A DNA stretch of 33,408 nt from positions 1-33,408 of IMG/VR virus record IMGVR_UViG_3300001533_002944; one strand, 5' to 3'. Both the position numbers and the translations under genes were made by a program. This stretch comes from a virus. Positions 4,453 through 30,530 of the stretch are shown in pieces. Position 1 is the stretch's first letter. Every line of letters begins with the position of its first letter. The notes under the pieces were generated by a model. The model was not told the DNA's origin. It did not search any database and saw only the letters and a list, made by a program, of their open reading frames with translations.

Positions 4453-6971
4453 TGGCAGGCGCGAATCTCATTGTTAAGAAGTTTACAAGCTTTTATGGGC
4501 TTGATGAGAGATCGTCTGATTTAGTGATTGATCCAAACTATGCGACTTTATTTGAAGCGGCTCAGATTACGAGAAACACTTCGATTGAAAAATCGCCTGG
4601 ATATAAAGCCAGACTTGCTGATTTAGCATTTGCTGGAATTGCGAAGTATGGTCGCGAAAATAAAGTTACTGGACAGATTGAAAATGAGTTAATTGGATTC
4701 AGTAATACGGTTCATCGAAGGATCGAAGGGTCGATTACGATCAACTACACAGGATCATTGTCTGGTGTTGAGCTTTCAATCACGACTGGTGATGATGACG
4801 AAACAATCACATTGGCAATAAGAGAGTCGGAAACGACTATTTACACCAAGAACCTGACTAAGGTCATTGATACATCTTCACCGGTTACACTTGCGACTTT
4901 AAAGACAGAGATCGATGTTTTAACAGATTATTCCATGACGATTAGTGGAACGACAAGCACTGAGGCTGGGCTATTGCCTTATATTGAAAGCTTAGTGTTT
5001 ACGACGGCTGCTCCGGCAGTGATTTCTTTTTATGAATGGGAAGAGGTAAACAAGACCGTAACTTCTCCATTGGCAGGTAACGCCACAAATAAAGCAGCGA
5101 GTGATTTTGAAAACACGGCGTGGATGAACTCACGCGGAAATCTTTATATCACGAACGGATATGATGAGGTTTTAAAGTATGATGGGCAAACTCTTTATCG
5201 AGTGGGTTTGCCTCAGTCTTCTGGCGCTCCCACTACTGCTTTTGTTGGCTCTGGATCGATTACCGATGCAGGCAGGCAGTACAGCATTACTTATGTTCAA
5301 GTAGACGCGAATGGGAATGTGGCCGAAGGGGTGGAGTCAGCACAATCGGCTTCCGTGTCACCAAGTGGTCAAAATGTAAATGTTACCGTAGCCAACATTC
5401 AAGCGGGTAGCGGGTTTAACACCAACTGCGCGATTGTGGCGGGTGGTCAAACTACCGTAAACACAATTACGGTCGACGATGGATCGGGTGGAAATCACAC
5501 GATGAAAGCCGGAGACCAAGCTTATTTTTTTGATGGAGTGACTGGTGATTATATCACTAGAAATGTAACAGCGGTCGCCGCCACTACGATTACAGTGGAC
5601 GGTGCAGCGGTTACAGTGGCTGACAATGCGGTAATCTCTAACAATCTAACGATTGCGATTTATGCGACTACTGCCTCTGGTCTTTTAAGATACTTGTTAG
5701 CTGAGATTCCAAACAATAGCTTTGCTTTGACGCAAGTTTATTTAGATTCTTTAAACGATATTACTGGGAATGCTTTATTTTCTACTCCGGATATTTCTCC
5801 AGGCCTGCCACCTAAATGTCGATATATCACCAGCTTTCAGAATTTTATTATTCTTGGTGGTAACAATGAAGCCGTAAACTCAATTTATGTCTCAGACTTT
5901 GGTTTATCGTTTGAGGGATTTGATCAGTTTAACCGATCTTTTGACGTGATTAGTGGTTTGGGAGACAGGATTTCAGGTCTTGGGGCTAACGATCAATTTT
6001 TATACATTGGAAAATCGCAATCGAGTTTTAATGTTTCTGGAGATTTGGCTACGTTTCGGATTAGAGTAGACCAAAACCGCGGAGACAAAGGTTGTGAAGC
6101 GCATCATTCAATTCAGCCCGTATCTGGCTATCTGTATTTTCTTTCTACTGATGGCGTGTATAGAATTATATCTGGGCAAACTCCTGAGGAAATAAGCGCG
6201 CAGATTCAGCCTGTATTCTTTTTAGACGTTGAAAACACTGGAGCTAACTTTAATTTAAAGCGGGCGACGGCTATTAACGACACGGATAATCAGAAGTATT
6301 TGCTTTTCTTGCCAGATGAAGTGGTTGGCGATTCTACAATCAACGCCACAGAAGCGTCTCGAGTGTTTATATACGACTACTATCGGAATAGTTGGGCGCG
6401 TCGAGCGAACTTGAATGCGGCGGCAGGGTTTGTAAAAATTAACGAACAAATCTGGTTTGCGGAAAGAAGGCTTGGCACAACAACCAATAATTCTGAGTCG
6501 TTTACTTATTTGATTTCTACCGATCCTAACTCAGTTCAAAGCTTCAATGATCATGTCACTGCGACACCGTTTACTTTTGGCACCGCTTGGACTCATTTGG
6601 GCGAGCCTCAAGTATTTAAGAAACTGTTGAAAGCAAAAATTGAAAGCTTAGAGTCAACGCCTAATGATGGGTTCGATCTTACGATCAACGTAGAGTTTAA
6701 CTTTATCAAAGGTCTTACAGTGAACTCAAAGGAGCTTTCACCTGGTTTTAGTGGTGAGGGATATGGCTTAAGTGCGTACGGTATTGCTCCTTATGGAGAT
6801 CCCGATAATCAAATTCAAACATTGGACAGCATTATCAAGATGAAGCATCAAAAGTGTTATTCTTGGCGGTTGATTTTAATAAATAACAAAAAGAATCAAA
6901 ACGTAAAGATTACAGGCATTGCTGAAGATGTGAATACACCCTATCGAATGACAGGAGGGTTTAAAGAGTGA
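4452..6971 (+). CDS. Tail nozzle / stopper-like protein (T7 gp12 / P22 gp10-like)
   Basis: An 839-residue, mainly beta protein. It begins with a segment describing a connector-type N-terminus (Phe-Tyr-Gly-Leu-Asp-Glu-Arg, then a Leu-x-Glu-Ala-x-x-Ile-Thr-Arg-Asn stretch). The centre holds fibronectin-like or Ig-like Thr/Val-rich repeats. The second half carries propeller-like blades with signatures such as Tyr-Asp-Tyr-Tyr-Arg-Asn-Ser-Trp near residues 640-650, common in podovirus nozzle proteins. Size and position right after the adaptor fit a nozzle closing the short tail. The beta repeats at residues about 260-410 look like an inserted accessory domain. The assignment is by architecture. 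Confidence 0.6.
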   Translation: MAGANLIVKKFTSFYGLDERSSDLVIDPNYATLFEAAQITRNTSIEKSPGYKARLADLAFAGIAKYGRENKVTGQIENELIGFSNTVHRRIEGSITINYTGSLSGVELSITTGDDDETITLAIRESETTIYTKNLTKVIDTSSPVTLATLKTEIDVLTDYSMTISGTTSTEAGLLPYIESLVFTTAAPAVISFYEWEEVNKTVTSPLAGNATNKAASDFENTAWMNSRGNLYITNGYDEVLKYDGQTLYRVGLPQSSGAPTTAFVGSGSITDAGRQYSITYVQVDANGNVAEGVESAQSASVSPSGQNVNVTVANIQAGSGFNTNCAIVAGGQTTVNTITVDDGSGGNHTMKAGDQAYFFDGVTGDYITRNVTAVAATTITVDGAAVTVADNAVISNNLTIAIYATTASGLLRYLLAEIPNNSFALTQVYLDSLNDITGNALFSTPDISPGLPPKCRYITSFQNFIILGGNNEAVNSIYVSDFGLSFEGFDQFNRSFDVISGLGDRISGLGANDQFLYIGKSQSSFNVSGDLATFRIRVDQNRGDKGCEAHHSIQPVSGYLYFLSTDGVYRIISGQTPEEISAQIQPVFFLDVENTGANFNLKRATAINDTDNQKYLLFLPDEVVGDSTINATEASRVFIYDYYRNSWARRANLNAAAGFVKINEQIWFAERRLGTTTNNSESFTYLISTDPNSVQSFNDHVTATPFTFGTAWTHLGEPQVFKKLLKAKIESLESTPNDGFDLTINVEFNFIKGLTVNSKELSPGFSGEGYGLSAYGIAPYGDPDNQIQTLDSIIKMKHQKCYSWRLILINNKKNQNVKITGIAEDVNTPYRMTGGFKE

Positions 6972-7328: not shown

Positions 7329-8690
7329 ATGGCATTTTTTAATGATTTTCAACTACAATACGGTCTTGATCCAAACAATATGCCTCAGAAATTCCAGGGC
7401 ACGCCTCAATATGAGACGCCGAGCTTTGGTAAAACTCCCTTAAGCTTAAAAGAGTCGAAGCGCCTTCGAGAGAAAGAATTAGAAGAGGCACAAAGAAGAG
7501 AGCGTCTTCAGCGCGAGAGAGAAATGGTTCGTGCGGACCGAGGGCAGGATATGCAGGCGGGCCAGGACTTCTTTGCAAGGATGTATGGCACTAAAGGCAC
7601 TGGTGGTGGTTCTTTAGGTTCTAGTGCTTTTGGAAATGTAGACGCCAATCGAGCTCAAGAGATTCAAGACATTATCAATCAAAGAAAAGGGGTTATTGAT
7701 CCATCAGAAGATATTGCTGAAGCTTTGGCTAGAAGAAGGGCAAACCTAGATGGACTAGATTCTGTCGAGGGGCAGGCTTTAAGAGAGCAGTCCATGCGTG
7801 GGCTTTTGTCTCAAGAAAAGTCAGCTGCAAGAAATCTAAGGGGTTCCTTGGGGGGCCTTCGAGGGGGTGCGGCGGCGGCGGCACAAGCTTCTCTTGCCAG
7901 GGATGTTGGCAACCAGAGATCTCAGCTTGAGCAGGATCTTTTGATGAAGAATTTGGATATCAAAAATCAAGCATTGGGTTCGTTTGAGCAGGCTGCAATG
8001 TTAGATGATCAAAGAAGGGCGCAGAGAATTGGTGACCTTGAGGGAAGTCTCACTCGAACGCGAGCGGATGAGCTAGCGCGACAACAATACAATCAGTCTC
8101 AAGCCGCAAGAGAGTTTGCAGCAAGATCAGGTGCAGAGCTTGGATTTGCAAATTTAGGGATGCAGGAAAGAAACCAGATTCTTAGTCAGATTGGTGCTGA
8201 AGATTTAGCCGACGCGACAGAGAATGCAGGGGGTGGCAAGAAGTCACACTTTTGCATGGAGTTCTTTCGCAAAGGATTGATTTCAAGAGATCAGCTACAA
8301 ACACTGACTAATTTAGTCGGTGAGGGCATGGTTCGCCGAGGCGACTTTGTTTATTGGTATATGAAAAACGCTGACAAGATTGCAGTAGAGGCAAACAAAA
8401 AAGGATTTAATTGGTCGGAAGAGGTTCATGTAGTGGATCTCACAATTAGCACTTTTAAAGAGTGTGGTCGAAAAATGGGTGACACGGTTTACATTCAATT
8501 TTGTGAAAGAATGTGGAAAAAGTTCGGCAAAGATGTGGATGGTATAGAGGCGTTTGACCAAAGATTTTACAATCCGACTTTGTTAAGGCGATTAGTTGGT
8601 TTTGTGAAGATTATGGGTACTAAGAAAACCTGGACGCACACACCAAAGGTTCTTAGAGCAAGATGGAGGGCACGATGTCAAATGGCGTAA
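7329..8690 (+). CDS. Putative internal virion (ejection) protein 1
   Basis: A 453-residue protein. Residues about 35-75 and 150-270 are Arg/Glu/Gln/Ala-rich helices likely to form coiled coils, with a Gly-rich and poly-Ala patch near residue 180-190. The C-terminal 150 residues are different: Cys, Trp, Phe and Lys-rich (Cys-Met-Glu-Phe-Phe, then Phe-Val-Tyr-Trp-Tyr). That tail region looks like a separate globular domain, possibly a fusion. Helical Ala/Gln-rich proteins between the nozzle and the end of the late operon are usually podovirus ejection proteins. The C-terminal domain is unassigned. Confidence 0.55.
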   Translation: MAFFNDFQLQYGLDPNNMPQKFQGTPQYETPSFGKTPLSLKESKRLREKELEEAQRRERLQREREMVRADRGQDMQAGQDFFARMYGTKGTGGGSLGSSAFGNVDANRAQEIQDIINQRKGVIDPSEDIAEALARRRANLDGLDSVEGQALREQSMRGLLSQEKSAARNLRGSLGGLRGGAAAAAQASLARDVGNQRSQLEQDLLMKNLDIKNQALGSFEQAAMLDDQRRAQRIGDLEGSLTRTRADELARQQYNQSQAAREFAARSGAELGFANLGMQERNQILSQIGAEDLADATENAGGGKKSHFCMEFFRKGLISRDQLQTLTNLVGEGMVRRGDFVYWYMKNADKIAVEANKKGFNWSEEVHVVDLTISTFKECGRKMGDTVYIQFCERMWKKFGKDVDGIEAFDQRFYNPTLLRRLVGFVKIMGTKKTWTHTPKVLRARWRARCQMA

Positions 8691-10360
8691 TTGAATTTGA
8701 GGATCCTGAGCTTAAGAAGATGCAGAGCGGTTTTAAGCTTGGCCAAGATGCAGCGATGAACGGTCTGCTTGGGTTTCAAGATTTAAAGCAAGCAACTAAA
8801 GATGTAACCGGAAAAGAAGTTTCGGATGAAGACTTAAAGAATCAAAAGATTCAAGCAGCGACACAGCGGTTTGCTCAGAAAAAAGAAGATGAGATTACTT
8901 CCGGTCGAAAGACTGCCGCAGAGCTTTATGAAGAGGCTAAAAAGAAAAAGAATTTGTCGGTAGGCGAAGCTTTATCGATGGGGGCTTTGGCTTTAGTACC
9001 TTCTTTAATTGGGTATGCTGTGGGTGGAGCTCGAGGTGGAGAAGTGGGTGCGAATGTTGGTGCTAAAGCTTCTGGTGGATATTTTGGTTCTTTAATTAAA
9101 GAGAAAGAAAACATTCGTGGAATTACCGCAGATCAAGCGAAGGCAGCGGAGGAACGTGCAAAGCAAGCATCTGGAACAGTGGACAAGGCTGATTTTGCGG
9201 GGTTTGAAAGAGAATTAGATTTGTTAGCCCCTTCTAGATCGGCTGCTAGTGAAAAACAGTTTAAGCTTTTGGTTCCAGACCGAGCTGGCGGAAACTTTGG
9301 TGAAGATGTTGAGGTTATTCGTGGGGTGGATGGGGTTGTGCGTTATTTAGATGGAACAGAAATTCCTTCTGATGTTTTATCTGTTGCGAAAGTAGCAAGA
9401 GCACGTCGACCGCGTGTAGATACAGAATCAGGATTTGTAATAATAGAAGACCCATTTTCTCCTAATGGAGTTAGGACTCTGCGTCGTGCGACAGATATGG
9501 AAAAGAAATATGGGTTTGTGTCTGGAGAAGGCGTCCCTAATTTTAACATTTCAAACATGGAAAATGTTTCCAATGAAGAGAACATTCCTAATAAAGAGAA
9601 AAAAAGAGTGCCAGATCAGGCTAAAACGAGAGCCGATTTCGCTTTGCCAGAGATGCCAGGATTTCAAGAAAACTTTTCCAACTATGACGTAGGGCAGCAC
9701 CCAAGAGTTAAGCAAATTGAAACGAAGCGAAACGAACTCGAGAAGCAGTTGATGAGTAGTAGTACATTGTTGCCAGGGGAAACTCCCAAACAAAGAGATG
9801 TTCGGGTGAAAGCCTTAGATCGTCAAATTGTTGATTTAATTAGTGATGAAGATCGACAAGAGCAACAGCTTACAAAGGCATTAGAAAAAGCCATTGATAG
9901 CCAGGCGGTCGCTAGGGAATCGAATCGCATTATTTCAAGGCTGGCTGGTGTAAAAGACGGTGTAAACACTGGTTTTATATCTGATTCAATCGGTCCTATT
10001 TTAGATAAATTTGATTCTTTGGGAGATCAAGAGAGAGTGCGTTTGCGGGCTAGAACAGAAGAAGCTCTTTCAGCGTTTTTGAAAGAACGATCAGGGGCAG
10101 CCGTTGCAGAGCCAGAATTTCAAAGGCTACAGCGAGTTTTGCCAGGTATGAGTGATAGTGATGAGGCATTTAAAACAAAGCTGCAAGAATTTGCTTTTAC
10201 GGCAGAAAATTTAAGAAGAAGGTCTTTAGAAGGCTCTGGATTATTCCAGTTTGCAGGTGAAAAAGACGGTCCTAAAAATGTGATTGAATCTCAAGAAGAA
10301 TCTATACAACAGAGGGCTAAAGAGATTTTAGAGCGAAGAAGGCTTGAGAGGGGACAGTAA
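8675..10360 (+). CDS. Putative internal virion (ejection) protein 2
   Basis: About 561 residues. The start is taken as ATG 8675 because GGAGGG at 8665-8670 sits 4 bases before it; an in-frame ATG at 8663 lies on top of that site. The gene overlaps the previous one by 16 bases. Near residues 95-135 there is a Gly/Ala-rich hydrophobic segment (Ala-Leu-Val-Pro-Ser-Leu-Ile-Gly-Tyr-Ala-Val-Gly-Gly) that could cross a membrane. The second half (residues about 350-560) is charged and helical with long Glu/Arg/Gln stretches. The layout resembles podovirus internal proteins that build the DNA-translocation channel after infection. No enzymatic motif was seen. Confidence 0.55.
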   Translation: MSNGVIEFEDPELKKMQSGFKLGQDAAMNGLLGFQDLKQATKDVTGKEVSDEDLKNQKIQAATQRFAQKKEDEITSGRKTAAELYEEAKKKKNLSVGEALSMGALALVPSLIGYAVGGARGGEVGANVGAKASGGYFGSLIKEKENIRGITADQAKAAEERAKQASGTVDKADFAGFERELDLLAPSRSAASEKQFKLLVPDRAGGNFGEDVEVIRGVDGVVRYLDGTEIPSDVLSVAKVARARRPRVDTESGFVIIEDPFSPNGVRTLRRATDMEKKYGFVSGEGVPNFNISNMENVSNEENIPNKEKKRVPDQAKTRADFALPEMPGFQENFSNYDVGQHPRVKQIETKRNELEKQLMSSSTLLPGETPKQRDVRVKALDRQIVDLISDEDRQEQQLTKALEKAIDSQAVARESNRIISRLAGVKDGVNTGFISDSIGPILDKFDSLGDQERVRLRARTEEALSAFLKERSGAAVAEPEFQRLQRVLPGMSDSDEAFKTKLQEFAFTAENLRRRSLEGSGLFQFAGEKDGPKNVIESQEESIQQRAKEILERRRLERGQ

Positions 10361-12375
10361 TGTCACAGAACTTAGAAGAGTTAAGTGATGCTGAATTAGA
10401 AGCCATTATCAATCAAAGCAACCCTTCTGATGATTTAGAAAATTTATCGGATGAAGAGCTTGAGAGAATAGCTTCAGGTGTTTCCAAAGAAGATTCACTA
10501 TCAGGTGTTTCTAAAACTGAGTCGGCACTTCGAGGTGCGGCTCAAGGAGCTACTTTTAGTTTACAGCCTTATATATCCAGCGCTCTAGAAACTAGAATAG
10601 GGTCTTTAGACCGGGCCATTACAGGACAATCTGCTTTTGATGAAGAGCCGGTTGGAATAGGTGATCGAATTAAAGCCGGGCTATCTGCGATCACAGGGGT
10701 TCCGGACGCAAGAGCAATCGAGGATTATCAGCGTTCTTTGTCGACTCAAATTGATCAAAGAGATGCTGCTAGACAAGCAAATCCTGTAACATTTGGTGCG
10801 AGTCAGTTTGGTGGGGCATTGTTAACTGCTCCTGTAACTGGTGTCGCAGGTGGCGCTTACAAAGCAGCGAGAGGCGCAAATGCAGCTCGATCTATGCTGG
10901 CAAGTGCGATTGCAAAAGATTCTTTGGTGGACGGCGCAATAGGCGCAGCCGAGAATGTTGCGGCTGAAGCACCTACCAATGTGGAAGATGCTTTAAAAAA
11001 TGCAGCTTTTGGATTTGGTGTTTCGGCTGTAACGAGTGGGCTTTTAAAAGCGCCTAGTTTTGCCAAGGCTGGAAAGCCTTTAATCAGCCCTTCCGCGTCA
11101 CGAATGCAGTTAGAAGAAATGAGTGAAGGAATTAATAGTGCCGTTTATCGAGCAAAAGCTGTAGGTGCGACTGCTACTGATCTTCGTGGAACCACTAAAA
11201 ACCTTGTTAAAAACCCGATTGTAAAAAGTGCAAAAGAATTACAAAACAGGGGGTTTTTCAAAAAGGGTCAAAGGCAGTTCAATCCGGAAACACGACAGTT
11301 TGATGAATTAAAGGGAGGAATTTTACCTCCTTCTCAAGAAGAGCTTTTGTTTCGAACAGAAGAGGGTGTTGAAGTCGCCGCGGAAGAATTAAAGAAAGTT
11401 TTGAGACAGGCCAACAAATCTTTTACAGATAATTCAGAATTGGGTTTATCAAAAATAAAATCAAATCAACTTCCTGGCTTTAGTGCATTAAAAGAAGATC
11501 TAGCGGAAAATATTAAATACCCAGTTAACCGAAAAGGAATGACAGCGGCTAGAAAAACAATAGAAGCCGTTGAAGAATCTATTAATGCTAAAGATGGAAG
11601 CGACTTACTTCGTTTGCAAGATATTAAGCAAAGGCTTGGCAGAGAGTTAAACGACAAAACGTTTTTAGACAGGTCTGCCGAAGACAAGAGAATGCTTCGC
11701 GGTTTGTATTCTGTTTTAAAAGAAGGGATTGAAAACAAAGCGGAGCAGGGATTAAAAAGGGCTGCAGAGTTTGATCCTAAACTGCAATTAGATTTAAGTG
11801 CGGTGAATGATTTAAACCGCGTTCAGAGCGAACTTTTAAGTGTTCAAAGTCCTTTAGCCAAAGCATTGGGCCGGGAAAGAGGAACGATTGATCTCCCAAG
11901 TGTAACCCAAATTGTTGGAGCGTCCGGCACCTCTTATCTCACAGGGAGCGCGTCTGTAGGAATTGCTGTCGAAGGCCTAAGGAAGGGTGCTAAAAGTTCT
12001 ATCGGCTATCAAATGAGAGCCAATCTTTCTGATGCTGGAAGAGCTTTTGTCGACGGTTTTAAACAGAAGCCTAAGCTAGCACTCGATTTTGTGAGAAAAA
12101 ACTTTCCAGAAATGGCCGAAGAAGTTGGTGCGTTAGCGGCGAAGGGCATTCCTGAATGGCAGCTTGCTAATGCGGTCGCAAGGCAACCAAGCGTGTTAAG
12201 AGTGTTTGAAGACCAAAAAAGATCTTTCACATACAATCCAGGCACTGGTGAATTTGATGATCCAACAGAAGCAAAGTCATTTATAGAAAACATGATTAAA
12301 GATGACGAAGGTGACAGTTCAATTAAGCGTGCAAAAGAACTTAAAAATTACGGCAAAGGCCGGGGCTTAAAGTAG
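10360..12375 (+). CDS. Putative internal virion (ejection) protein 3, last late gene
   Basis: A 671-residue protein that overlaps the previous gene by one base. The N-terminus has two short repeats, Leu-Glu-Glu-Leu-Ser-Asp-Ala-Glu-Leu and Leu-Glu-Asn-Leu-Ser-Asp-Glu-Glu-Leu, a linear motif often found at the start of phage internal proteins and possibly a docking signal. Residues about 140-235 are Ala/Gly-rich and partly hydrophobic. The rest is helical and charged, with a second Gly/Ser-rich hydrophobic patch near residues 510-530. I see no lysozyme or peptidase motif. The 3' end overlaps by 9 bases with the HNH gene on the opposite strand, leaving no room for a separate terminator. Confidence 0.6.
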   Translation: MSQNLEELSDAELEAIINQSNPSDDLENLSDEELERIASGVSKEDSLSGVSKTESALRGAAQGATFSLQPYISSALETRIGSLDRAITGQSAFDEEPVGIGDRIKAGLSAITGVPDARAIEDYQRSLSTQIDQRDAARQANPVTFGASQFGGALLTAPVTGVAGGAYKAARGANAARSMLASAIAKDSLVDGAIGAAENVAAEAPTNVEDALKNAAFGFGVSAVTSGLLKAPSFAKAGKPLISPSASRMQLEEMSEGINSAVYRAKAVGATATDLRGTTKNLVKNPIVKSAKELQNRGFFKKGQRQFNPETRQFDELKGGILPPSQEELLFRTEEGVEVAAEELKKVLRQANKSFTDNSELGLSKIKSNQLPGFSALKEDLAENIKYPVNRKGMTAARKTIEAVEESINAKDGSDLLRLQDIKQRLGRELNDKTFLDRSAEDKRMLRGLYSVLKEGIENKAEQGLKRAAEFDPKLQLDLSAVNDLNRVQSELLSVQSPLAKALGRERGTIDLPSVTQIVGASGTSYLTGSASVGIAVEGLRKGAKSSIGYQMRANLSDAGRAFVDGFKQKPKLALDFVRKNFPEMAEEVGALAAKGIPEWQLANAVARQPSVLRVFEDQKRSFTYNPGTGEFDDPTEAKSFIENMIKDDEGDSSIKRAKELKNYGKGRGLK

Positions 12376-13372: not shown

Positions 13373-14296
13373 CTAAAGAAGCACATCAGCAAACCGCTTT
13401 GTAATGTAGAGGCGCTCGGTAGCATCTTTTTGACCACCGAGACTGGATTTCACCTTCATCTCTTTGATCAACTTAAACCTAGTATCTTTGATCTCGTATT
13501 CTGAAACGAAGACAGGAGATTCTTGAGAGTCCGCCCAATCATAAAACTCTTGATGATTAAAACTTTGATCGTATTCGACTGTGCCTTTGTAAGGAATATC
13601 GCAATAGACGATAGATTGTGGATTAATTTTAATTTGCCGGTAGTCGGAATTGTAAAAATGCAGTTGCTGCAGTTGCTTCAGTCGCTGCAGTCGCTCCAGT
13701 CGCTCCAGTTGCTCCAGTCGCTTTAATTCTTTTTTGCCATCCCAGTCTTTTAAAAAGGGCTGAATCTGTTCTGGTATTTTTTTTGTTCGACGAAACCACT
13801 CTACTCGATTTAGAATGAAGATTCTTTTTTTATAAATACTTGTATTGGGCGGCCATGAATCTCTGCCAGTAACAGCTATCGATATTTCGTCGAATTCATC
13901 GAAGACCACGCATCGATGCAGAGAGCGCTTATAAGGCTCGATATCCTCTCCAAACAAATAATCATTCCCATTATTCCCAAAAGACCAAACCATTTTTATA
14001 AAAGCGTCAGTGTCTTTATTTTCTAAAAATTCTTCTTTAGAAACCCAAGGCATTTTAAAATTCTGATAGTTGAACTCTCCTGAAATTGCTCTTTGAACGA
14101 GCTCACACACTCCTGGCCTGATTTCATTGAAGTGAAAACCTTTATAGTCCTTAGACCTTCTTTGAATCATATAATGCGAAACGGAAAACCCACCGCCAAA
14201 GAGGTCATAGAAGTGATTTGCTTTTGGGAATAAGTGGGCGAATTGATCTATTATTTTGGATTTTGACCCCATGTAGGGAATGCCGTATTTTGCCAT
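13373..14296 (-). CDS. D12-class adenine-N6 DNA methyltransferase with Leu-repeat insert
   Basis: A 307-residue member of the Dam/D12 adenine methyltransferase class, which uses S-adenosylmethionine to methylate adenine in DNA. Tyr-Met-Gly-Ser-Lys at residues 8-12 and Asp-Leu-Phe-Gly-Gly-Gly-Phe at 31-37 form the cofactor site. The catalytic motif IV reads Asp-Ile-Pro-Tyr (233-236) rather than Asp-Pro-Pro-Tyr, a tolerable variant. Residues 191-212 are an unusual Leu-x-Arg/Gln-Leu-x-x-Leu tandem repeat just before motif IV, encoded by a 9-bp repeat. The gene follows the ParB-like gene by 5 bases. Likely roles are protection from host restriction or marking phage DNA; no matching nuclease is seen. 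Confidence 0.85.
   Translation of the reverse strand: MAKYGIPYMGSKSKIIDQFAHLFPKANHFYDLFGGGFSVSHYMIQRRSKDYKGFHFNEIRPGVCELVQRAISGEFNYQNFKMPWVSKEEFLENKDTDAFIKMVWSFGNNGNDYLFGEDIEPYKRSLHRCVVFDEFDEISIAVTGRDSWPPNTSIYKKRIFILNRVEWFRRTKKIPEQIQPFLKDWDGKKELKRLEQLERLERLQRLKQLQQLHFYNSDYRQIKINPQSIVYCDIPYKGTVEYDQSFNHQEFYDWADSQESPVFVSEYEIKDTRFKLIKEMKVKSSLGGQKDATERLYITKRFADVLL
13661..13726. repeat. In-frame 9-bp tandem repeat inside the methyltransferase gene
   Basis: About seven imperfect copies of a 9-base unit, close to CTCCAGTCG on the + strand, lie end to end. Substitutions fall mainly at two positions of each unit. In the coding frame each unit gives Leu-(Glu/Gln/Lys)-(Arg/Gln). Because the unit is a multiple of three, copy-number change by slippage would lengthen or shorten the protein without a frameshift. 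Confidence 0.85.
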
Positions 14297-16071: not shown

Positions 16072-16614
16072 TTATCCCTCCTTCATTTGTTCTAGGTAAG
16101 CTTTGGCATTCGCGTTTGTTTCGGGGTGTTTGAAGTCTTTCGCATACCACTCCAGTTGTGCTGGGGTGAGGCTTTTGAGAGTGCGGCCTTTGTTTTTAGT
16201 CAGAGGCAAAACAAATGATCCGGGGTCGTCGAGCACAACTACGTTTTCTTTCGTGCTTGCTTTTGCGCCGTCATCATCCTCTTCCTCTACAACGAGATCG
16301 AGTAAAATCAATTTGGCATAGCGTCGGTAGTAGGTCATCGCCGAGCCTAGTTTTTGAGCATCAGCAATTAAGTCGTCGTGAAATGGAATTTGAACAGTGT
16401 TCATCACTTCACCAGATATATGTCTCAGTGTCGCAATAAGCATTTGATCTTTCATTTCGTAAATAATTGTAAATTGATGTTTTATCAATAAAGGGCGAGT
16501 GGCGTTGTCGACTTCGGTAGAGTCAGCATATTTATATTTAAAAGCTTGGGAGTGTGCTTTTATTTGAGGGCGGTCTGCCATCATTGCAAAAAAGTCTGTA
16601 AGATGTTCACTCAT
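16072..16614 (-). CDS. erf: ERF-family single-strand DNA annealing protein
   Basis: A 180-residue Erf-type recombinase. It anneals complementary single strands in phage recombination, circularisation and repair. The family core is seen as Tyr-Lys-Tyr-Ala-Asp at about 27-31, Pro-Leu-Leu-Ile at 41-44, Gln-x-x-Gly-Ser-Ala-Met-Thr-Tyr-Tyr-Arg-Arg-Tyr at 87-99, and the acidic Glu-Glu-Asp-Asp-Asp-Gly at 111-116. After a linker, residues 133-175 form a short domain with Leu-Thr-Lys-x-Lys-Gly-Arg-x-Leu and Leu-Glu-Trp-Tyr, like the C-terminal module of exonuclease X and DUF3820 proteins. The gene overlaps the Gp157-like gene by one base, the usual partner arrangement. Confidence 0.88.
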   Translation of the reverse strand: MSEHLTDFFAMMADRPQIKAHSQAFKYKYADSTEVDNATRPLLIKHQFTIIYEMKDQMLIATLRHISGEVMNTVQIPFHDDLIADAQKLGSAMTYYRRYAKLILLDLVVEEEDDDGAKASTKENVVVLDDPGSFVLPLTKNKGRTLKSLTPAQLEWYAKDFKHPETNANAKAYLEQMKEG

Positions 16615-17120
16615 TATTCTCCGCCTTTCATTCGTACATGGAGTTCTTGCTCAAGTTTGATAATTTCTTTTAAGGGTTCGGGAAGGTTTTCGTATTCGTT
16701 TTTAAGTTTCTGCGTTAAAATCTTAGGAGTCATTTCGACAAATTCAGCGGGAAGATCTGAGTAATCTAAACCGCCAAGATTTACTTTCACTGGACCTTTT
16801 TGCAGTTTAAATTCGACAGATTCGGTTTGTAGTTTTTCGTCGCTATTTAAAAGGAACTTAATCCAGTCTTTAAATCTTTGTTTTTTGTTTTCGAGTACGG
16901 CTTTTCGATCACTCCAATATCGTGCTTTTTCTTTGGCGTGATTCATTTCCATGTCGAGAGTTTCTAAATATTTAGCGTAATTGTTTATTTTTTGGTCGCG
17001 CTCTTTAGAGTTTTGTTGCTTCCACTCGATTAACCAGTCGGGCATTTCGCCTTCCATGGTTTCGATTTGAGAAACAATTTCTTCTCGTTCTTTCAAAATA
17101 AATGCCAATGATTTTTGCAT
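16614..17120 (-). CDS. Siphovirus Gp157-like protein
   Basis: About 168 residues. ATG 17120 is chosen because AAAGG lies 7 bases before it; an in-frame GTG at 17141 is possible but overlaps the upstream gene. The first half is a long charged helix with Glu/Lys/Gln heptads. The middle carries Trp-Ile-Lys-Phe-Leu-Leu and the second half Phe-Lys-Leu-Gln-Lys-Gly-Pro-Val-Lys-Val, ending in a Glu/Leu-rich tail. The coiled coil plus basic beta segment and the place directly before an Erf gene match the Gp157 family, which accompanies phage recombinases. The biochemical role is not established. Confidence 0.7.
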   Translation of the reverse strand: MQKSLAFILKEREEIVSQIETMEGEMPDWLIEWKQQNSKERDQKINNYAKYLETLDMEMNHAKEKARYWSDRKAVLENKKQRFKDWIKFLLNSDEKLQTESVEFKLQKGPVKVNLGGLDYSDLPAEFVEMTPKILTQKLKNEYENLPEPLKEIIKLEQELHVRMKGGE

Positions 17121-17121
17121 A

Positions 17122-17451
17122 TTAAAACCTTTCGTATTCACTGAGATGAACGTCTATAAAAGATCCAAGCTCTTGATAGGAGTTACCGGTGGTATGAAAT
17201 TGGGGTTCGATGTAGGCGGTAGAAACAAGATCTTTCCACTCGTTTTTTAGATTGGCCGGAGTCCAGATAATCAGGTGATTTGACTCTTCAAAGATTTCGA
17301 AGGGCACGTCTTTATCAAGGCGGCCCATAAAAGGCTCTACATCGTCAAATATAGAAACGAATCGATTAGTTTCAACAAAGCCCGCAAGTCGTTTGTAGTC
17401 GTATCGGGTGGCGATTAAGCCGAGCACCTGCTCGTTGTTTAGGTAGTTCAT
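17122..17451 (-). CDS. First gene of the recombination operon, unknown function
   Basis: A 109-residue acidic alpha/beta protein, first in the leftward operon. It has an aromatic-rich core (Phe, Trp, Tyr) and no membrane segment or Cys. The ribosome site is weak (GAAAG about 10 bases upstream). It lies about 43 bases after the predicted start of transcription from the promoter at 17501-17529. As the first early gene it could be a small host-takeover or regulatory factor, but no family is recognised. Confidence 0.6.
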   Translation of the reverse strand: MNYLNNEQVLGLIATRYDYKRLAGFVETNRFVSIFDDVEPFMGRLDKDVPFEIFEESNHLIIWTPANLKNEWKDLVSTAYIEPQFHTTGNSYQELGSFIDVHLSEYERF

Positions 17452-19791: not shown

Positions 19792-20217
19792 CTAAACAAG
19801 CCAAGAATATCTTGGCATTAATACCGCCACGAGATCAGACCTCTGATCAATCGGCCTTACTCGAATATAAGCATTTTGATCGGCAGCTGCACGCAAAGAT
19901 GTTGTTTTTGAGTTTCCCCCTGCCGCTTCAATCATTAAGTCTTGATTTAAGCTAAATGCCACATGCGTAATCTTGTCGGGATTGCGCCCATAAAAAGCTA
20001 ACGCCCCAAAGCCTCGCATCTGAGCTAAACCATGCTCGTAAAAATGAGTGAGGAGTGCTTGTGCCGTTTGATCTCCTGGAGGGTCCATTCCAACCACAGC
20101 TAAGAGTTCTTGGGCGAATCCTGAGCAATCAAAACCGTCTATCGTGTCATCCCCTCCCCAACGGTAAGGCAGGCCTACAAACTTAAGCGCATAATCATAC
20201 AATATCTCTCGATCCAT
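19792..20217 (-). CDS. NlpC/P60-family endolysin
   Basis: A 141-residue cysteine peptidase that should cut peptide stems in peptidoglycan at lysis. The active-site Cys31 lies in Phe-Asp-Cys-Ser-Gly-Phe, preceded by Pro-Tyr-Arg-Trp-Gly-Gly, the classic NlpC/P60 entry. His85 (Thr-His-Val-Ala-Phe) is the second catalytic residue and the third is probably Glu97 or nearby. ATG 20217 has GAGGG 5 bases upstream. There is no signal peptide and no wall-binding domain, so it needs a holin or similar pore. The gene order, membrane protein then peptidase then small membrane and lipoproteins, is a normal lysis cassette. Confidence 0.85.
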   Translation of the reverse strand: MDREILYDYALKFVGLPYRWGGDDTIDGFDCSGFAQELLAVVGMDPPGDQTAQALLTHFYEHGLAQMRGFGALAFYGRNPDKITHVAFSLNQDLMIEAAGGNSKTTSLRAAADQNAYIRVRPIDQRSDLVAVLMPRYSWLV

Positions 20218-20225
20218 TCGGTCCC

Positions 20226-20546
20226 TCACTCGCTCTCCTTTATCGATTGATTCAACATGTCACTAATTCGAGGCTGTGCAATTTTATGCACCACCTCCCA
20301 CGCCTTATCGACCTTGCTTTCGAGTTTCGCTAAATTTACTTTCTGAGAGTTAATGTCTCGCCATAGAGCCGTGTCTTTGCCGTCGACCTCTCCTTTTCTC
20401 TCTGCCATATTAAGTTTTATAAGATTCATTTCATCAAAGAGTCGGTCTAGCCTGCGGTCTACTTTCGTAATCCAAGACTTAATCATCCAAAGACCTAAAC
20501 CACCCGCTGTCACCACTCCACCCGCTCCGACTATCATTTCATCCAT
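20226..20546 (-). CDS. Membrane plus coiled-coil protein (holin or spanin candidate)
   Basis: A 106-residue protein, first in the lysis cassette. Residues about 4-26 are a Gly/Val-rich hydrophobic segment that probably spans the membrane, followed by charged helices with Leu/Asp/Lys heptads (residues about 30-95). The form, one N-terminal membrane helix and a coiled tail, fits an inner-membrane spanin or a one-pass holin. The gap to the endolysin is 8 bases. No other clear holin is present in this cassette. Confidence 0.6.
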   Translation of the reverse strand: MDEMIVGAGGVVTAGGLGLWMIKSWITKVDRRLDRLFDEMNLIKLNMAERKGEVDGKDTALWRDINSQKVNLAKLESKVDKAWEVVHKIAQPRISDMLNQSIKESE

Positions 20547-22969: not shown

Positions 22970-23237
22970 AAAACAAGTCATCCTTACCGAAGTCGAATCT
23001 CAAGTCGCGAAACTTGAAATCGATAAACTCGTTGAACAAAAAAAACTCGACCTTCTCGCTAACAAATACATTCTCTCTGAAACTGCGGCCATTCTTAGAG
23101 GAGTCTTAAACGGCTTTCATCAAAAAGATCAAAGTCTGCTGAACGAAATCAATCGATCCCTAAAAAACTTACAAGACCGAGATAACTTCGAGGAATCCAT
23201 GCGTGAGTGGTTTAGACACCTTATTAGAAAAACTTGA
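22914..23237 (+). CDS. Small coiled-coil protein between terS and terL
   Basis: A 107-residue protein overlapping terS by 56 bases and terL by 35. Residues about 20-90 are Leu/Glu/Lys/Gln-rich and should form a coiled coil. Its place, wedged and overlapping with both terminase genes, suggests a packaging accessory, although no known family fits. AGGGGA lies just before its ATG. Confidence 0.6.
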   Translation: MDEYSKLILPKNLPTSPTEKQVILTEVESQVAKLEIDKLVEQKKLDLLANKYILSETAAILRGVLNGFHQKDQSLLNEINRSLKNLQDRDNFEESMREWFRHLIRKT

Positions 23238-25677
23238 TAAAGATCTAAAGATCCAAGCTCCAGAACTCGTTGCTAAGCTCTTCTTTCAAAGAGCACCTCA
23301 CGATGGCCAGCTTGAAATTATCTACAAATTTATCGATACCTACGGCCAAAACATTCCCATATTTGTTCAGAGCGGTAGGAAAGTTGGCAAGCAGCTTCAG
23401 CTAGAGGAAGAGCTTCTGACTACGGAAGGCTTTAAAAAAGTAAAAGATATTCAAGAAGGCGACCAGTTATTTGGACCCGACGGTAAGACCACTCAAGTTC
23501 TTCATGCAACCCACCCCGAAGAGCAAAATTACTTTAAAGTTTGCTTTTCCGATGGATCGACAATTGAAGCTTGCGAAGACCACCTTTGGGAAGTTTATTC
23601 GAAAAAAGCTAGAAAATGCATATCTGATCAATCTCGATATGGATCCAGCGCACCCGAAGTGCTTAAAACAAAAGACCTCATACTTAACCTGAGATATGGC
23701 AAAGAGTGGAATTACAGCATACCAGCAGCAAAACCAATTGAACTAGAGCATAAGAATTTTGATCTCGACCCCTACCTTTTAGGAGTGTGGTTGGGAGACG
23801 GATCGAAGGCAGACGCTCATATTACAAAAAATGACTCAGAGGTTTTCGATGCTTTTACTCAACAAGGCTTTGAGGTTGTTCAAAGAACGTATGCTCCAAC
23901 TAAATACATCAAGGGGCTGTTGCCGTATCTTCAAAAACTAAATCTAATTCAAAATAAACACGTCCCGGAAGCTTATCTCTATGGCTCAAAAGAGCAGCGA
24001 CTAGCGCTTCTTCAAGGACTTATGGACGCGGATGGCTATGCAGATAAAAACGGAAAAGTGGAGTTCTGCTCGACAACGCCACAACTCGCAGACAGCGTTC
24101 ACTACCTAGCCTGTTCTTTAGGGTGCGTGACTAAAAGGTACGATAAAATAGGTAAACTGTATGGCGTGCCAAAAAAAAAGGCTTACATGGTCAGCTTCTA
24201 CGCAGACCCAGAAACCACGCCTGTTTTTAGATTGAAAAGAAAACTTAAAAACCAAAGAGCAAGGAAAAAACCTAATCATCGATTTATCGTGAGCATTACA
24301 CCCATTGGCCGTAAAATAGGCAGATGTTTTGAGGTCAACAACACCTCACATCTTTATCTAGCCGGTCGATCTCTCATTCCTACCCACAACACCGAAACGG
24401 CCTCATTCCTCTGCTTCCTTCACGCCATCCTTACCCACAACCCCTCTATTTACTTTATTGCTCCCTATTTCAAACAAGCAAAAGAAATCCTTTGGGCAAC
24501 GAGAAGAATTCAGCATTTCGCTCCCTGGTTAGTTCCCAGAAAACCAAATGAATCGGAGCTCCGACTTCCAGTCATTAACGACGGATTTATTAAACTTGAT
24601 GGGGCCGACAATATCGACACCGCTCGAGGCTTTACACCGTCTCTTGTCATTTATGACGAGTACAAAGACTTTAAGCCAGGATTCCACACCGCCATGGAAC
24701 CCAATCTCATGGCTCGAAAAGCTCAACTCGTCGTCTTTGGCACGCCTCCAGAGTCCGAAACTGAATACTTTGAGCTCGCCGATATCGCCAAAAGACACGG
24801 CACATTCTTCCAAAAGCCAACCTCGGCGAACCCCTATATCGATCCCATATGGCTAAAAGAGAAAAAGGCTGAACTCATTGCTCGAGGCGAAGAGGATGTG
24901 TGGGCCAGAGAATACGAAGGTAGATTTGTAAGAGGGGGATCTCGATCTATCTTCCCGATGTTTAATAAAGAAAAGCTTGTTCAACCTCATGAAAAAGTAA
25001 TGGAAGAGGTGCTCGCCACCCTTCACAAGCTAGAGCTTCTGTGTGTTTCGGATCCAGCGACAATTTCCACCTTTGGTGTGCTCTTCCTTGCCCTTAATCG
25101 ATACACAAAAACTATTTATGTCCTGAAAGATATTTACGAGAGCAACCCTCAAAAGACCTCTGTAGACGGTATCGTGCCTCAAATCAAAGAGTTCACGTCG
25201 AGCATCCCAGGCAACTGGGACTATGTATCCGATGAAGCCGCTGCCTGGTTTATCAATGAAGCTTCTCAGAGATATAACCTTCATATCTTTCCCACGAGTA
25301 AAGCTCAGAACAAAAAAGAAGTGGGTCTCGCTCAGTTTAAAGATATCTTGCTCGCAGATAAGTTGATTGTTTCGGATCAAGCTCCAAACTTTGTTTGGGA
25401 GTGTGAAAACTACGTAAAAGATCAGAGAGGCAATATTCCGAAGGAGAAGGATCATTTAATAGACTGCGCTAGGTATAGTCTTGGATTCTGGAACTACGAT
25501 TTGAACTCTCGGAAAGAAAGAGAGTCTATCGAGCGGCAAAATCAAGAACAGAAGCGTTTTTATACCATGGATGAGGATTTTCCTAAAGCGTTCGGTGAAC
25601 CTAATGATTTACTTGAGGCTGAGTTTTTGCAAGAAGTAGAATCTGATTGGGAGGAGGCCCTACAAAATGATTGGTGA
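23203..25677 (+). CDS. terL: Terminase large subunit with in-frame intein
   Basis: An 824-residue precursor. Residues 64-396 are an intein; the spliced protein would be 491 residues, a normal TerL length. The extein has the packaging ATPase: Walker A Gly-Arg-Lys-Val-Gly-Lys | Thr, split by the intein between Lys63 and Thr397; Walker B Leu-Val-Ile-Tyr-Asp-Glu; and a coupling motif Val-Val-Phe-Gly-Thr-Pro. The C-terminal RNase H-like nuclease shows Val-Ser-Asp-Pro-Ala, then Asp-Glu-Ala-Ala, then Asp-His-Leu-Ile-Asp-Cys-Ala-Arg. Without splicing the ATP loop cannot form, so packaging should depend on the intein. GTG 23203 is the start; it overlaps the small upstream gene. Confidence 0.92.
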   Translation: MSGLDTLLEKLDKDLKIQAPELVAKLFFQRAPHDGQLEIIYKFIDTYGQNIPIFVQSGRKVGKQLQLEEELLTTEGFKKVKDIQEGDQLFGPDGKTTQVLHATHPEEQNYFKVCFSDGSTIEACEDHLWEVYSKKARKCISDQSRYGSSAPEVLKTKDLILNLRYGKEWNYSIPAAKPIELEHKNFDLDPYLLGVWLGDGSKADAHITKNDSEVFDAFTQQGFEVVQRTYAPTKYIKGLLPYLQKLNLIQNKHVPEAYLYGSKEQRLALLQGLMDADGYADKNGKVEFCSTTPQLADSVHYLACSLGCVTKRYDKIGKLYGVPKKKAYMVSFYADPETTPVFRLKRKLKNQRARKKPNHRFIVSITPIGRKIGRCFEVNNTSHLYLAGRSLIPTHNTETASFLCFLHAILTHNPSIYFIAPYFKQAKEILWATRRIQHFAPWLVPRKPNESELRLPVINDGFIKLDGADNIDTARGFTPSLVIYDEYKDFKPGFHTAMEPNLMARKAQLVVFGTPPESETEYFELADIAKRHGTFFQKPTSANPYIDPIWLKEKKAELIARGEEDVWAREYEGRFVRGGSRSIFPMFNKEKLVQPHEKVMEEVLATLHKLELLCVSDPATISTFGVLFLALNRYTKTIYVLKDIYESNPQKTSVDGIVPQIKEFTSSIPGNWDYVSDEAAAWFINEASQRYNLHIFPTSKAQNKKEVGLAQFKDILLADKLIVSDQAPNFVWECENYVKDQRGNIPKEKDHLIDCARYSLGFWNYDLNSRKERESIERQNQEQKRFYTMDEDFPKAFGEPNDLLEAEFLQEVESDWEEALQNDW
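23392..24390 (+). mobile_element. Class 3-type intein with LAGLIDADG homing endonuclease in the TerL Walker A loop
   Basis: The 333-residue element splits Gly-Lys | Thr of the ATP loop. It starts with Gln, not Cys/Ser, and ends Pro-Thr-His-Asn before Thr+1. Block B has Glu-Asp-His-Leu-Trp (His64, Trp66). Block F is Arg-Cys-Phe-Glu-Val ... His-Leu-Tyr-Leu-Ala-Gly with Cys312. Trp in block B, Cys in block F and Thr+1 form the WCT set that defines class 3 inteins, in which the block F Cys makes the first attack. Residues 129-137 (Leu-Leu-Gly-Val-Trp-Leu-Gly-Asp-Gly) and 207-215 (Leu-Gln-Gly-Leu-Met-Asp-Ala-Asp-Gly) are the two endonuclease motifs, each with its acidic residue. The DNA is A/G-rich while the flanking terL is C-rich, which suggests transfer into the gene. 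Confidence 0.93.
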
Positions 25678-25956: not shown

Positions 25957-28161
25957 TTGTCACTCACTTTCGATGATCTAGAACAAGCCACAGCGCCTTA
26001 TGGTGATTCTGATGATTCCGATGTTTATAAGCCATTCTGGGCCATAGCCGATCAGGGGGACGAAAAAGTCCTCAACTGGTTAAAGTTTAATCTTTCCAAT
26101 TTAAAGCGAAAGTCGATCGATCGAGTAGAAGAGTACCGATCCAATGTGGCGCGCTACAAAAATCTTTATTATTACGACCTCGATCAAAGGGAAGGTCGAA
26201 ACTCTAGGGACTTTGTTTCCGGCTCTCCGATTAACAGGCGCTATCAAAAGGTTTCGGCCAATCACTTAAGGGATCTTGTAAATGCAAGGGTGGCAAGGCT
26301 CACTCGGTTTAAGCCTGCGATTGCTGTGGTGCCACCAACGAATGAGAATGCAGATGAGCTTGCCGCTAGTATGGCCAAGCGATGGATTGATTATTTATGG
26401 AACAAAAACAAGATAGAACAATTAAATGCTCGTCATGCAAAGAACGCTGATCTTCTAGGAGATAGCTTTATATGGCCGAGTTGGGATCCGGACAAAGGAC
26501 CAATCGATCCCGATTATTTGGATGATGAAGAGGTTCAGGCAGACATTGACGGCGAGGATATAAAGCTCGATGGCAAGCCTCGAATGGGAGATGTGGCTTT
26601 TAAGTTGGTTCGAGCGGACTACGTTCATTTCGAGCCCAAAGAAACTTATGAAGATGCGAGTTATTGCTTTATTGAGGAGTATGAAGCCACAGAAGCTTTA
26701 AAAAAGGATTTCCCTCGTTCGGCTGGGGACATCAAGGTCGAAGGTGATTTAAGGCGATTTGATTTTGAAAGCTTTAAAGAAGAGACGCTCCCCTACTCCA
26801 CTCGAAAGATTACGTTTTATCATAAGCCGACTAAGCACTTTCCTCGGGGGGTTGAGGTTGTTTTTACTGTCAACACTCTTCTCAGGCAGAGAGACTTCCC
26901 ATATCTTGATCACAATGATCCGGAAGAGACTTTAGAAATTGGGTTGCCTCTGGTTCGATATACCTCTGACGAAGTGGTGGGTGAGCAAAGAGGGATTTCC
27001 TTCGTTCGCTTTATTAGAAACCTTCAAGATATTTATAACTCTCTTACGACGATGATTGTAAGAAACCAGCTGTTAGCGGCGCATCCAAAATGGATCATGC
27101 CAGCGGGGGCTGCGAATCTAAAGTCTTTGGGTAACGATATGACAGTGGTGCAATACAAAGGCCCCACACCTCCACAGCTAGTGACGTTTAATACGACTCG
27201 ATCAGAGACATTTGATTTTCGAGATAAGCTTCGAGAAGAAATGCAGCAGCTTTCTCTTGTTTATGGGAATTCTCGAGGAGAGCCGCCTCCAGGGGTGAAG
27301 TCGGGTGTGGCGATACAGTTCTTAGCCGAACAAGAGCAAGAGCGTTTTAACGAGCAGGTTGTAAAATGGCAGCAATACATCGTGAACTTAGCGGAGTGGA
27401 CAGTTCGTTTAATCGGATTGCACTACGACAAGGACGACAAAAGAAAGATTCAGATTATTGGAACTGAGACTGGAATGGACGGCGAGGTTTTAGAGTTTGA
27501 TCCGGAAGTGTTTAAGCGCAAGTTTAATATCCGAATTATGAACTCCTCTGCTCTTCCAGAGTCTAAAGCGGCCCGCATTCAAACGGCTTTGGATATTCGA
27601 GAGATTGCTCCGAATGTGATGAGTGACGAGGATTTAGTCGAGGTTCTGGATATTGGTAATGTTCACAAGCTAAAAGCCAAGATCACCGTGAATAAGCAAG
27701 CGGCAGATTTTGAGAATCAGGTTATGAAAGAGGGTCATTCAACAGAAGACCCAGCTCCTTATGAAGATCATTTGGTGCATTATGATCAGCACTTAACGAC
27801 CATGATGGACAAGGGTTATCACAAATGGCCTAAGGCGAGAAAAGAATCGTTTCAAGATCATGTGATGGCGCACGAAATGTTTATGTATCGGATTTCTAAG
27901 AAGTCGGAAGCCTATGCGCAAGAGATCGCCGCTCGCTTCCCAAGCTTTCCATTGTTCTTCCCAATTGAGGAGCTCGAAGGTGTACTGCAAGAAGAATCAG
28001 GAATGGTTCAACCAGTGACGTCTCCTGAGCAAGGTTTACCGCAAGCCAATCAGATGCAAGCCCCAATGGAGGGAGTTCCGGCTGAGGAGCTCGCAATGCC
28101 CAGCGAGCTACCTCAACCCGAACCTCTTCCATCAGGAGAAAATGCTGCACCGCTAATCTAG
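25957..28161 (+). CDS. Portal protein
   Basis: A 734-residue protein that would form the dodecameric DNA gate at one capsid vertex. The order terL, small gene, portal, scaffold, capsid is diagnostic. The N-terminus is helical with many Tyr/Arg residues, followed by Val-Ser-Ala-Asn-His-Leu-Arg-Asp-Leu-Val-Asn-Ala-Arg-Val-Ala-Arg, then a stem/clip part, and Phe-Val-Arg-Phe-Ile-Arg-Asn-Leu-Gln-Asp-Ile-Tyr-Asn-Ser typical of podovirus portals. The last 60 residues are Pro/Gln/Glu-rich. The length matches P22/T7-type portals with a barrel. The start is TTG 25957 with AAAGGGGGG upstream. Confidence 0.85.
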   Translation: MSLTFDDLEQATAPYGDSDDSDVYKPFWAIADQGDEKVLNWLKFNLSNLKRKSIDRVEEYRSNVARYKNLYYYDLDQREGRNSRDFVSGSPINRRYQKVSANHLRDLVNARVARLTRFKPAIAVVPPTNENADELAASMAKRWIDYLWNKNKIEQLNARHAKNADLLGDSFIWPSWDPDKGPIDPDYLDDEEVQADIDGEDIKLDGKPRMGDVAFKLVRADYVHFEPKETYEDASYCFIEEYEATEALKKDFPRSAGDIKVEGDLRRFDFESFKEETLPYSTRKITFYHKPTKHFPRGVEVVFTVNTLLRQRDFPYLDHNDPEETLEIGLPLVRYTSDEVVGEQRGISFVRFIRNLQDIYNSLTTMIVRNQLLAAHPKWIMPAGAANLKSLGNDMTVVQYKGPTPPQLVTFNTTRSETFDFRDKLREEMQQLSLVYGNSRGEPPPGVKSGVAIQFLAEQEQERFNEQVVKWQQYIVNLAEWTVRLIGLHYDKDDKRKIQIIGTETGMDGEVLEFDPEVFKRKFNIRIMNSSALPESKAARIQTALDIREIAPNVMSDEDLVEVLDIGNVHKLKAKITVNKQAADFENQVMKEGHSTEDPAPYEDHLVHYDQHLTTMMDKGYHKWPKARKESFQDHVMAHEMFMYRISKKSEAYAQEIAARFPSFPLFFPIEELEGVLQEESGMVQPVTSPEQGLPQANQMQAPMEGVPAEELAMPSELPQPEPLPSGENAAPLI

Positions 28162-29348: not shown

Positions 29349-30530
29349 ATGGCTACTTTTAGTCTTACAACTGCCGCCAACATCTTTAAAACAAAGTTTG
29401 GAAAGCTGGCAGACAATACCTACAACTCATACAACGTCACTCTAGGTCGAGTAGACAAAAAGTATGATTTCGTAGGTGATCAAGTATTTGTGTCACAACC
29501 GTTAAGTTATGCAGGGGGTGTAGGTTCTGGATCTCTGCCCACAGCTGGTGTAGCGGACTATGGCAAAGCTCTTATTCTGGCAAAAAAAGTTTACGCTCGA
29601 ATGGAGTATGACCGAGAAGCGATTAAGGCTTCGGCTACTTCTGAAGGCGCTTTCATTGAGGGTGTAAAAGAAGTTACTCAAAAAGGCGTTGAGTCTTTTA
29701 TGAGAAACATGTCTCGGATTTGGTACAACGATGGCTCCGGACTTTTAGGTGTAATTGATACTGGTGGTGTTACCGGAACGAATCCTTATGTGATTGATAT
29801 TTCCGCAGCAAGTTGGAAAGAAGCAAACTTTGAGGAAAACGATCTTGTAAACATTGAGACCGCAAATACTGATCTTTTTGAGATTACTGCGGTTGATCCT
29901 ACAAATCAGCAAATTACTGTCAATCGAATCAGTGGATCTCAAACACCCGCATCAGGTGATGAAATCTTTATGCAAGGCTCTGAGGATAATGATCCTTTAG
30001 GTCTTAAGGGAGTTGTAGATGCTACCAATGGTTCGCTATACAATATTCCAGTTGCACGACGATGGCAGTCAACAAAAGTTGATGCTTCCAGTGCCGGTAT
30101 TACGACTGACTTGATGAACCAAGTCATGATTGAGGTGGAGAGAAAGACAGGCAAAGCGCCTAACTTGATCACGACTTCTTACAAGCAATACCGAAAAATC
30201 TTAGACCTTCTCGAAGATCAAAAACGATACAATGTCGAGCCTCGCGCTAAAGATCTTAAGGGTGTGGTTAGCTTCAAAGGTATAGCTTTCATGAGCTCTA
30301 TTGGAGAGGTGCCTATCGTACCTGAGAGATTTGTAGAGGATGACCGCGTTTACTTCTTGAATGACAAATACCTTTGCACCCATCACCGACCTGACTTCGG
30401 TTTCTTCGATGATGACGGCACGGTATTCCTCCGTAAAGCGGATGATGACAAGTACGAAGCCCGATACGGCGGATACTTGCAAAACTACATCGTTCCAACC
30501 TTCCAAGGTGTCTTGGACGGATTGGCTTAG
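29349..30530 (+). CDS. Major capsid protein (HK97 fold)
   Basis: A 393-residue coat protein. Features of HK97-fold coats: a spine-helix stretch (Met-Asn-Gln-Val-Met-Ile-Glu-Val-Glu) with the A-domain near residues 240-330, and a loop-rich insert at residues about 125-215 with Thr/Asn/Gly repeats that may be an inserted domain. It contains Tyr-Asp-Arg-Glu-Ala-Ile, a common E-loop neighbour. The gene has AAAAGGGGAAAG before its ATG and is directly followed by a strong terminator, as expected for the most abundant virion protein. Confidence 0.85.
   Translation: MATFSLTTAANIFKTKFGKLADNTYNSYNVTLGRVDKKYDFVGDQVFVSQPLSYAGGVGSGSLPTAGVADYGKALILAKKVYARMEYDREAIKASATSEGAFIEGVKEVTQKGVESFMRNMSRIWYNDGSGLLGVIDTGGVTGTNPYVIDISAASWKEANFEENDLVNIETANTDLFEITAVDPTNQQITVNRISGSQTPASGDEIFMQGSEDNDPLGLKGVVDATNGSLYNIPVARRWQSTKVDASSAGITTDLMNQVMIEVERKTGKAPNLITTSYKQYRKILDLLEDQKRYNVEPRAKDLKGVVSFKGIAFMSSIGEVPIVPERFVEDDRVYFLNDKYLCTHHRPDFGFFDDDGTVFLRKADDDKYEARYGGYLQNYIVPTFQGVLDGLA

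Follow-up and report, generated by a model that had tools for sequence, protein, structure and literature searches.

Class 3 inteins are defined (PMC5050341, PMC7891396) by the lack of a nucleophile at position 1 and by the WCT triplet: Trp at B:12, Cys at F:4 and Thr at G:5. In 2020, 1701 class 3 inteins were counted, 82.5% of them with LAGLIDADG motifs (PMC7891396). The P-loop site between Lys and Thr of the terminase large subunit (TerL) was named TerL1-a in mycobacteriophages in 2016 and termed a 'classic' P-loop insertion (PMC5050341). A literature search combining terminase large subunit intein, homing endonuclease and Walker A returned nothing.

The window, the whole 33,408 bases of virus contig IMGVR_UViG_3300001533_002944, contained a single copy of the intein, located in terL (Table 1). 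The terL gene was a single open frame (23203-25677) with a GTG start, encoding an 824-aa terminase precursor composed of 63 N-extein residues, the 333-aa element and 428 C-extein residues. The intein comprised precursor residues 64-396, starting with QLQLEEELLTTEGF and ending with LAGRSLIPTHN, and was flanked by IFVQSGRKVGK and TETASFLCF, so that it was inserted between Lys and Thr of Walker A. Genes for a portal and a major capsid protein lay 3' of terL, and the gene was therefore considered a genuine TerL of a tailed-phage packaging module. No relative of the terminase was found in two scans of 84,980 bacterial and archaeal genomes, which made a host or prophage assignment impossible.

Table 1. 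Features of the window, with positions, strand and basis of assignment.
Feature	Position	Strand	Basis
Class 3 intein, 333 aa, Gln1 to Thr331-His332-Asn333	23392..24390	+	Translation; empty-site comparison; class 3 PDB matches
TerL N-extein, 63 aa, ending in Walker A start GRKVGK	23203..23391	+	ORF; gapless alignment to intein-free L006
Gln1, non-nucleophilic intein residue 1	23392..23394	+	Translation; preceding Lys fixed by empty alleles
Block B region EACEDHLWEVY, residues 59-69, with His64 (B:10) and Trp66 (B:12, W of WCT)	23566..23598	+	Both invariant, 32-row alignment
First LAGLIDADG motif LLGVWLGDG, residues 129-137, Asp136 at catalytic position	23776..23802	+	Translation; 32-row alignment
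Second LAGLIDADG motif LLQGLMDADG, residues 206-215, Asp214 at catalytic position	24007..24036	+	Pfam LAGLIDADG_3; alignment
Cys312, block F position 4, putative branch-point nucleophile (C of WCT)	24325..24327	+	Invariant, 32-row alignment
Thr331-His332-Asn333: G:5 T of WCT, penultimate His, terminal Asn	24382..24390	+	Invariant, 32-row alignment
TerL C-extein, 428 aa and stop, with Thr+1 (Walker A Thr), Walker B-like VIYDE and C-terminal part	24391..25677	+	ORF; alignment to intein-free L006
Portal	25957..28161		PHROGs
Major capsid protein	29349..30530		PHROGs
ERF-family single-strand annealing protein	16072..16614	-	
Sipho_Gp157-like gene	16614..17141	-	
D12-class N6-adenine DNA methyltransferase	13373..14296	-	
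NlpC/P60 family peptidase	19792..20229	-	
Large ORFs, 453-839 aa	218..2413, 4452..6971, 7329..12375	+	

Elsewhere in the window, the ERF-family gene and the adjoining Sipho_Gp157-like gene together formed a phage recombination module, encoded on the other strand from the structural genes. A D12-class methyltransferase gene was also present, and an NlpC/P60 peptidase that is possibly lysis- or tail-associated. The large ORFs had no convincing match in Pfam or PHROGs (E ≤ 0.01), with one weak Pfam match, below its cut-off, among them.

Searching IMG/VR viral contigs with the precursor retrieved three contigs (L006, L007 and L008) with a continuous terminase of 495 aa, supplying the intein-free alleles that the preliminary description of this DNA had proposed to look for. 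The joined exteins (491 aa) shared 332 identities (68%) with the intein-free terminase, and the junction aligned without a gap (GRKVGK-TETASF in the joined exteins vs. GRKFGK-SETAAF in the intein-free protein). Both boundaries, Gln1 and Asn333 (THN before T), were thereby fixed. The ends of the 333-residue element and the splitting of Walker A at Gly-Lys and Thr, both already in the preliminary description, were recovered unchanged from the ORF translation and from these alleles, in which the motif is uninterrupted. A wider search with the C-extein gave 15 IMG/VR loci, 35-67% identical save for one remote match. The intein was present in none of the TerL relatives at these loci (0/15) and the P-loop was uninterrupted in all of them; the intein was therefore sporadic within this terminase family.

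A difference in base composition between intein and extein had also been claimed, and it was slight. Only third-position A differed, being slightly higher in the intein (0.33 vs. 0.25; p = 0.015, uncorrected); GC content was 0.424 vs. 0.44 and third-position C 0.228 vs. 0.268 (p = 0.22), which left the composition argument weak.

Judged by its sequence, the element is a class 3 intein, as had been proposed, and nothing in the sequence spoke against this reading. Residue 1 was Gln rather than a Cys, Ser or Thr nucleophile; Trp occupied B:12 within DHLW (His64-Leu65-Trp66), Cys312 at F:4 fell in the same alignment column as the Cys in block F of 6rix and 6bs8, and Thr331 of PTHN occupied G:5. 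His64, Trp66, Cys312, Thr331, His332 and Asn333, with Leu65 excepted, were invariant across 32 aligned inteins, the conservation of Trp being in part ascertainment because the viral intein loci were selected with patterns that included H-x-W. The best PDB sequence matches were the class 3 inteins MchDnaB1 of M. chimaera (6rix, E 2e-12) and MsmDnaBi1 of M. smegmatis (6bs8, E 3e-11), with alignments that take in the Trp of block B as well as the block F Cys and THN ends. Within a small local set, class 3 inteins matched the window intein down to E 3e-76 (L009), a similarity well beyond what chance would give. The residues named beforehand (Gln1, Trp66 in block B, Cys312 in block F and Thr+1) were all present in the translation. 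Thr+1 had been mistaken for the T of WCT; the Thr of the triplet is the antepenultimate intein residue, Thr331 at G:5 (PMC5050341, PMC7891396).

The AlphaFold2 model of the intein (mean pLDDT 94.2, pTM 0.92) had a Hint fold, and Foldseek matched its splicing domain to class 3 inteins (TM 0.77-0.83, target length), the model overall to PI-SceI and its endonuclease domain to I-DmoI. Alignment to known inteins and fold modelling, the two checks suggested earlier, thus both favoured class 3, ranking it ahead of class 1 and placing the model among class 3 inteins and LAGLIDADG endonucleases. It is extremely improbable that the element is a class 1-type intein deprived of its Cys1, or one of class 2, where residue +1 attacks the N-junction directly: the Hint fold is common to class 1, and the class 1 intein gp41-1 was a weaker match by both sequence and Foldseek, but the full WCT triplet is in place, F:4 is Cys here and Asp in class 1, the first nucleophile of class 1 (Cys1 or Ser1) is replaced by Gln1, the class 3 PDB entries ranked first by sequence, and class 1 inteins from the same loci gave no match better than E 0.002. 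The best explanation, and one that is very nearly certain, is a full-length class 3 intein with a Hint domain and a LAGLIDADG homing endonuclease in a tailed-phage TerL.

Gln1 had been described as unusual even among inteins, which stood insofar as it is a minority state and not insofar as it was thought exceptional. In the initial set of 82 distinct relatives, residue 1 was Ala in 41, Met in 14, Leu in 12, Cys in 4, Gln in 3, Arg in 3, Gly in 3, Asp in 1 and Pro in 1. After the set was enlarged by a second search centred on the nearest relatives of the window intein, Gln1 was found in 10 of 124 other class 3 inteins, 5 of the 10 directly after GK; because this sample favours relatives of the window intein, Gln1 may in truth make up a smaller share. 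A Gln1-specific clade was rejected: on a tree comprising 80 inteins, at least 3 changes between Gln and non-Gln were needed, and no well-supported group joined the window intein with other Gln1 inteins. The window intein had an end branch of 1.36, no near relative and no well-supported sister. Gln1 is thus clearly a recurrent minority state at a position free of nucleophilic duty, and is unremarkable because position 1 of class 3 inteins is non-nucleophilic by definition and 10 further class 3 inteins have it. A literature search gave no specific report on Gln1 in class 3 inteins. That the Gln1 class 3 inteins (the window intein and at least 10 others) use this residue for something specific is very doubtful; if they did, it could act through strain at the N-junction or as pyroglutamate at the N-terminus of the excised intein, and splicing rate or intein stability would change measurably.

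By analogy with class 3 biochemistry (PMC5222942, PMC7664689), Cys312 would attack the Lys(-1)-Gln1 peptide bond, aided by His64 and Thr331, and the N-extein would then pass to the hydroxyl of Thr+1. Asn333 would cyclise with the help of His332, and an acyl shift would join GK to T, with Gln1 as a probable bystander. Unspliced terminase would, as earlier supposed, be unable to bind ATP, since in the precursor the intein lies between the Walker A Lys and Thr, and the ATPase site would be incomplete until splicing. Because unspliced TerL would be inactive, and because conditional splicing is reported for mycobacterial DnaB inteins (PMC6195587), the possibility was weighed that the intein is splicing-dead, or splices only conditionally, and so blocks or regulates packaging; with all catalytic residues intact and the frame open this is most unlikely, and efficient splicing of the class 3 intein is expected, given that it sits in an essential gene.

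Both LAGLIDADG motifs were retained, in agreement with the preliminary description, each with its catalytic acid. Pfam LAGLIDADG_3 scored above its cut-off, and the fold matched I-DmoI and PI-SceI. The predicted endonuclease presumably cuts intein-free terL between GK and T or S, which would lead to homing between co-infecting phages. The long end branch and the want of a near relative would suit an inactive endonuclease and vertical inheritance of the intein, but this is the less probable course, given the conserved motifs with their catalytic Asp positions and the sporadic distribution among related terL genes.

Intein relatives occurred in 759 of 50,697 GenBank phage records (E ≤ 1e-5). Compared with TerL1-a (PMC5050341), the window intein is in the same protein and at the same site between Walker A Lys and Thr. 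The candidate TerL1-a intein of mycobacteriophage Easy2Say TerL (L090; ARKNGK before TEL) was 33.6% identical over 96% of the query, but has Ala as residue 1 and belongs to a different phage lineage. MchDnaB1 (6rix/6riy) and MsmDnaBi1 (6bs8) share WCT, the block B His, the THN end and the Hint fold with the window intein; unlike it, they are short (139-146 aa), lack an endonuclease and reside in a different host protein. The Gln1 class 3 inteins of IMG/VR contigs (L009, 42% identical, L024, L025, L119, L130, L153 and others) have Gln1, Leu2, the class 3 blocks, THN followed by T and an endonuclease, as here, although several have their insertion point in another protein or at a different terminase site, between GR and T, and not in Walker A of TerL.

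Two of these terminase ORFs (L024 and L025) carried two nearby inteins each, the Gln1 class 3 intein between GR and T and, a few residues on, a class 1 intein (CFPYSQ... or CFPYDQ... to AHN before C) right after DE of a Walker B-like motif. Another single ORF (L084) had a class 3 intein at a P-loop, between GGK and S, followed further downstream by another intein, of class 1 type (CLEENEL... to VVHN before C).

The window intein adds a class 3 example in TerL that is well delimited and comes with a clean comparison to empty sites. Its source is an uncultivated phage, and the terminase family concerned seems otherwise free of inteins. The intein offers a tidy case for asking whether position 1 matters to class 3 splicing and for studying homing among related phages. 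Gln1 is its sole mildly uncommon point, and is common to other class 3 inteins. With relatives in so many phage records, so many class 3 inteins already counted and the TerL1-a site known, it is a genuine but ordinary new example of an already much-described kind, and leaves the understanding of inteins unchanged.
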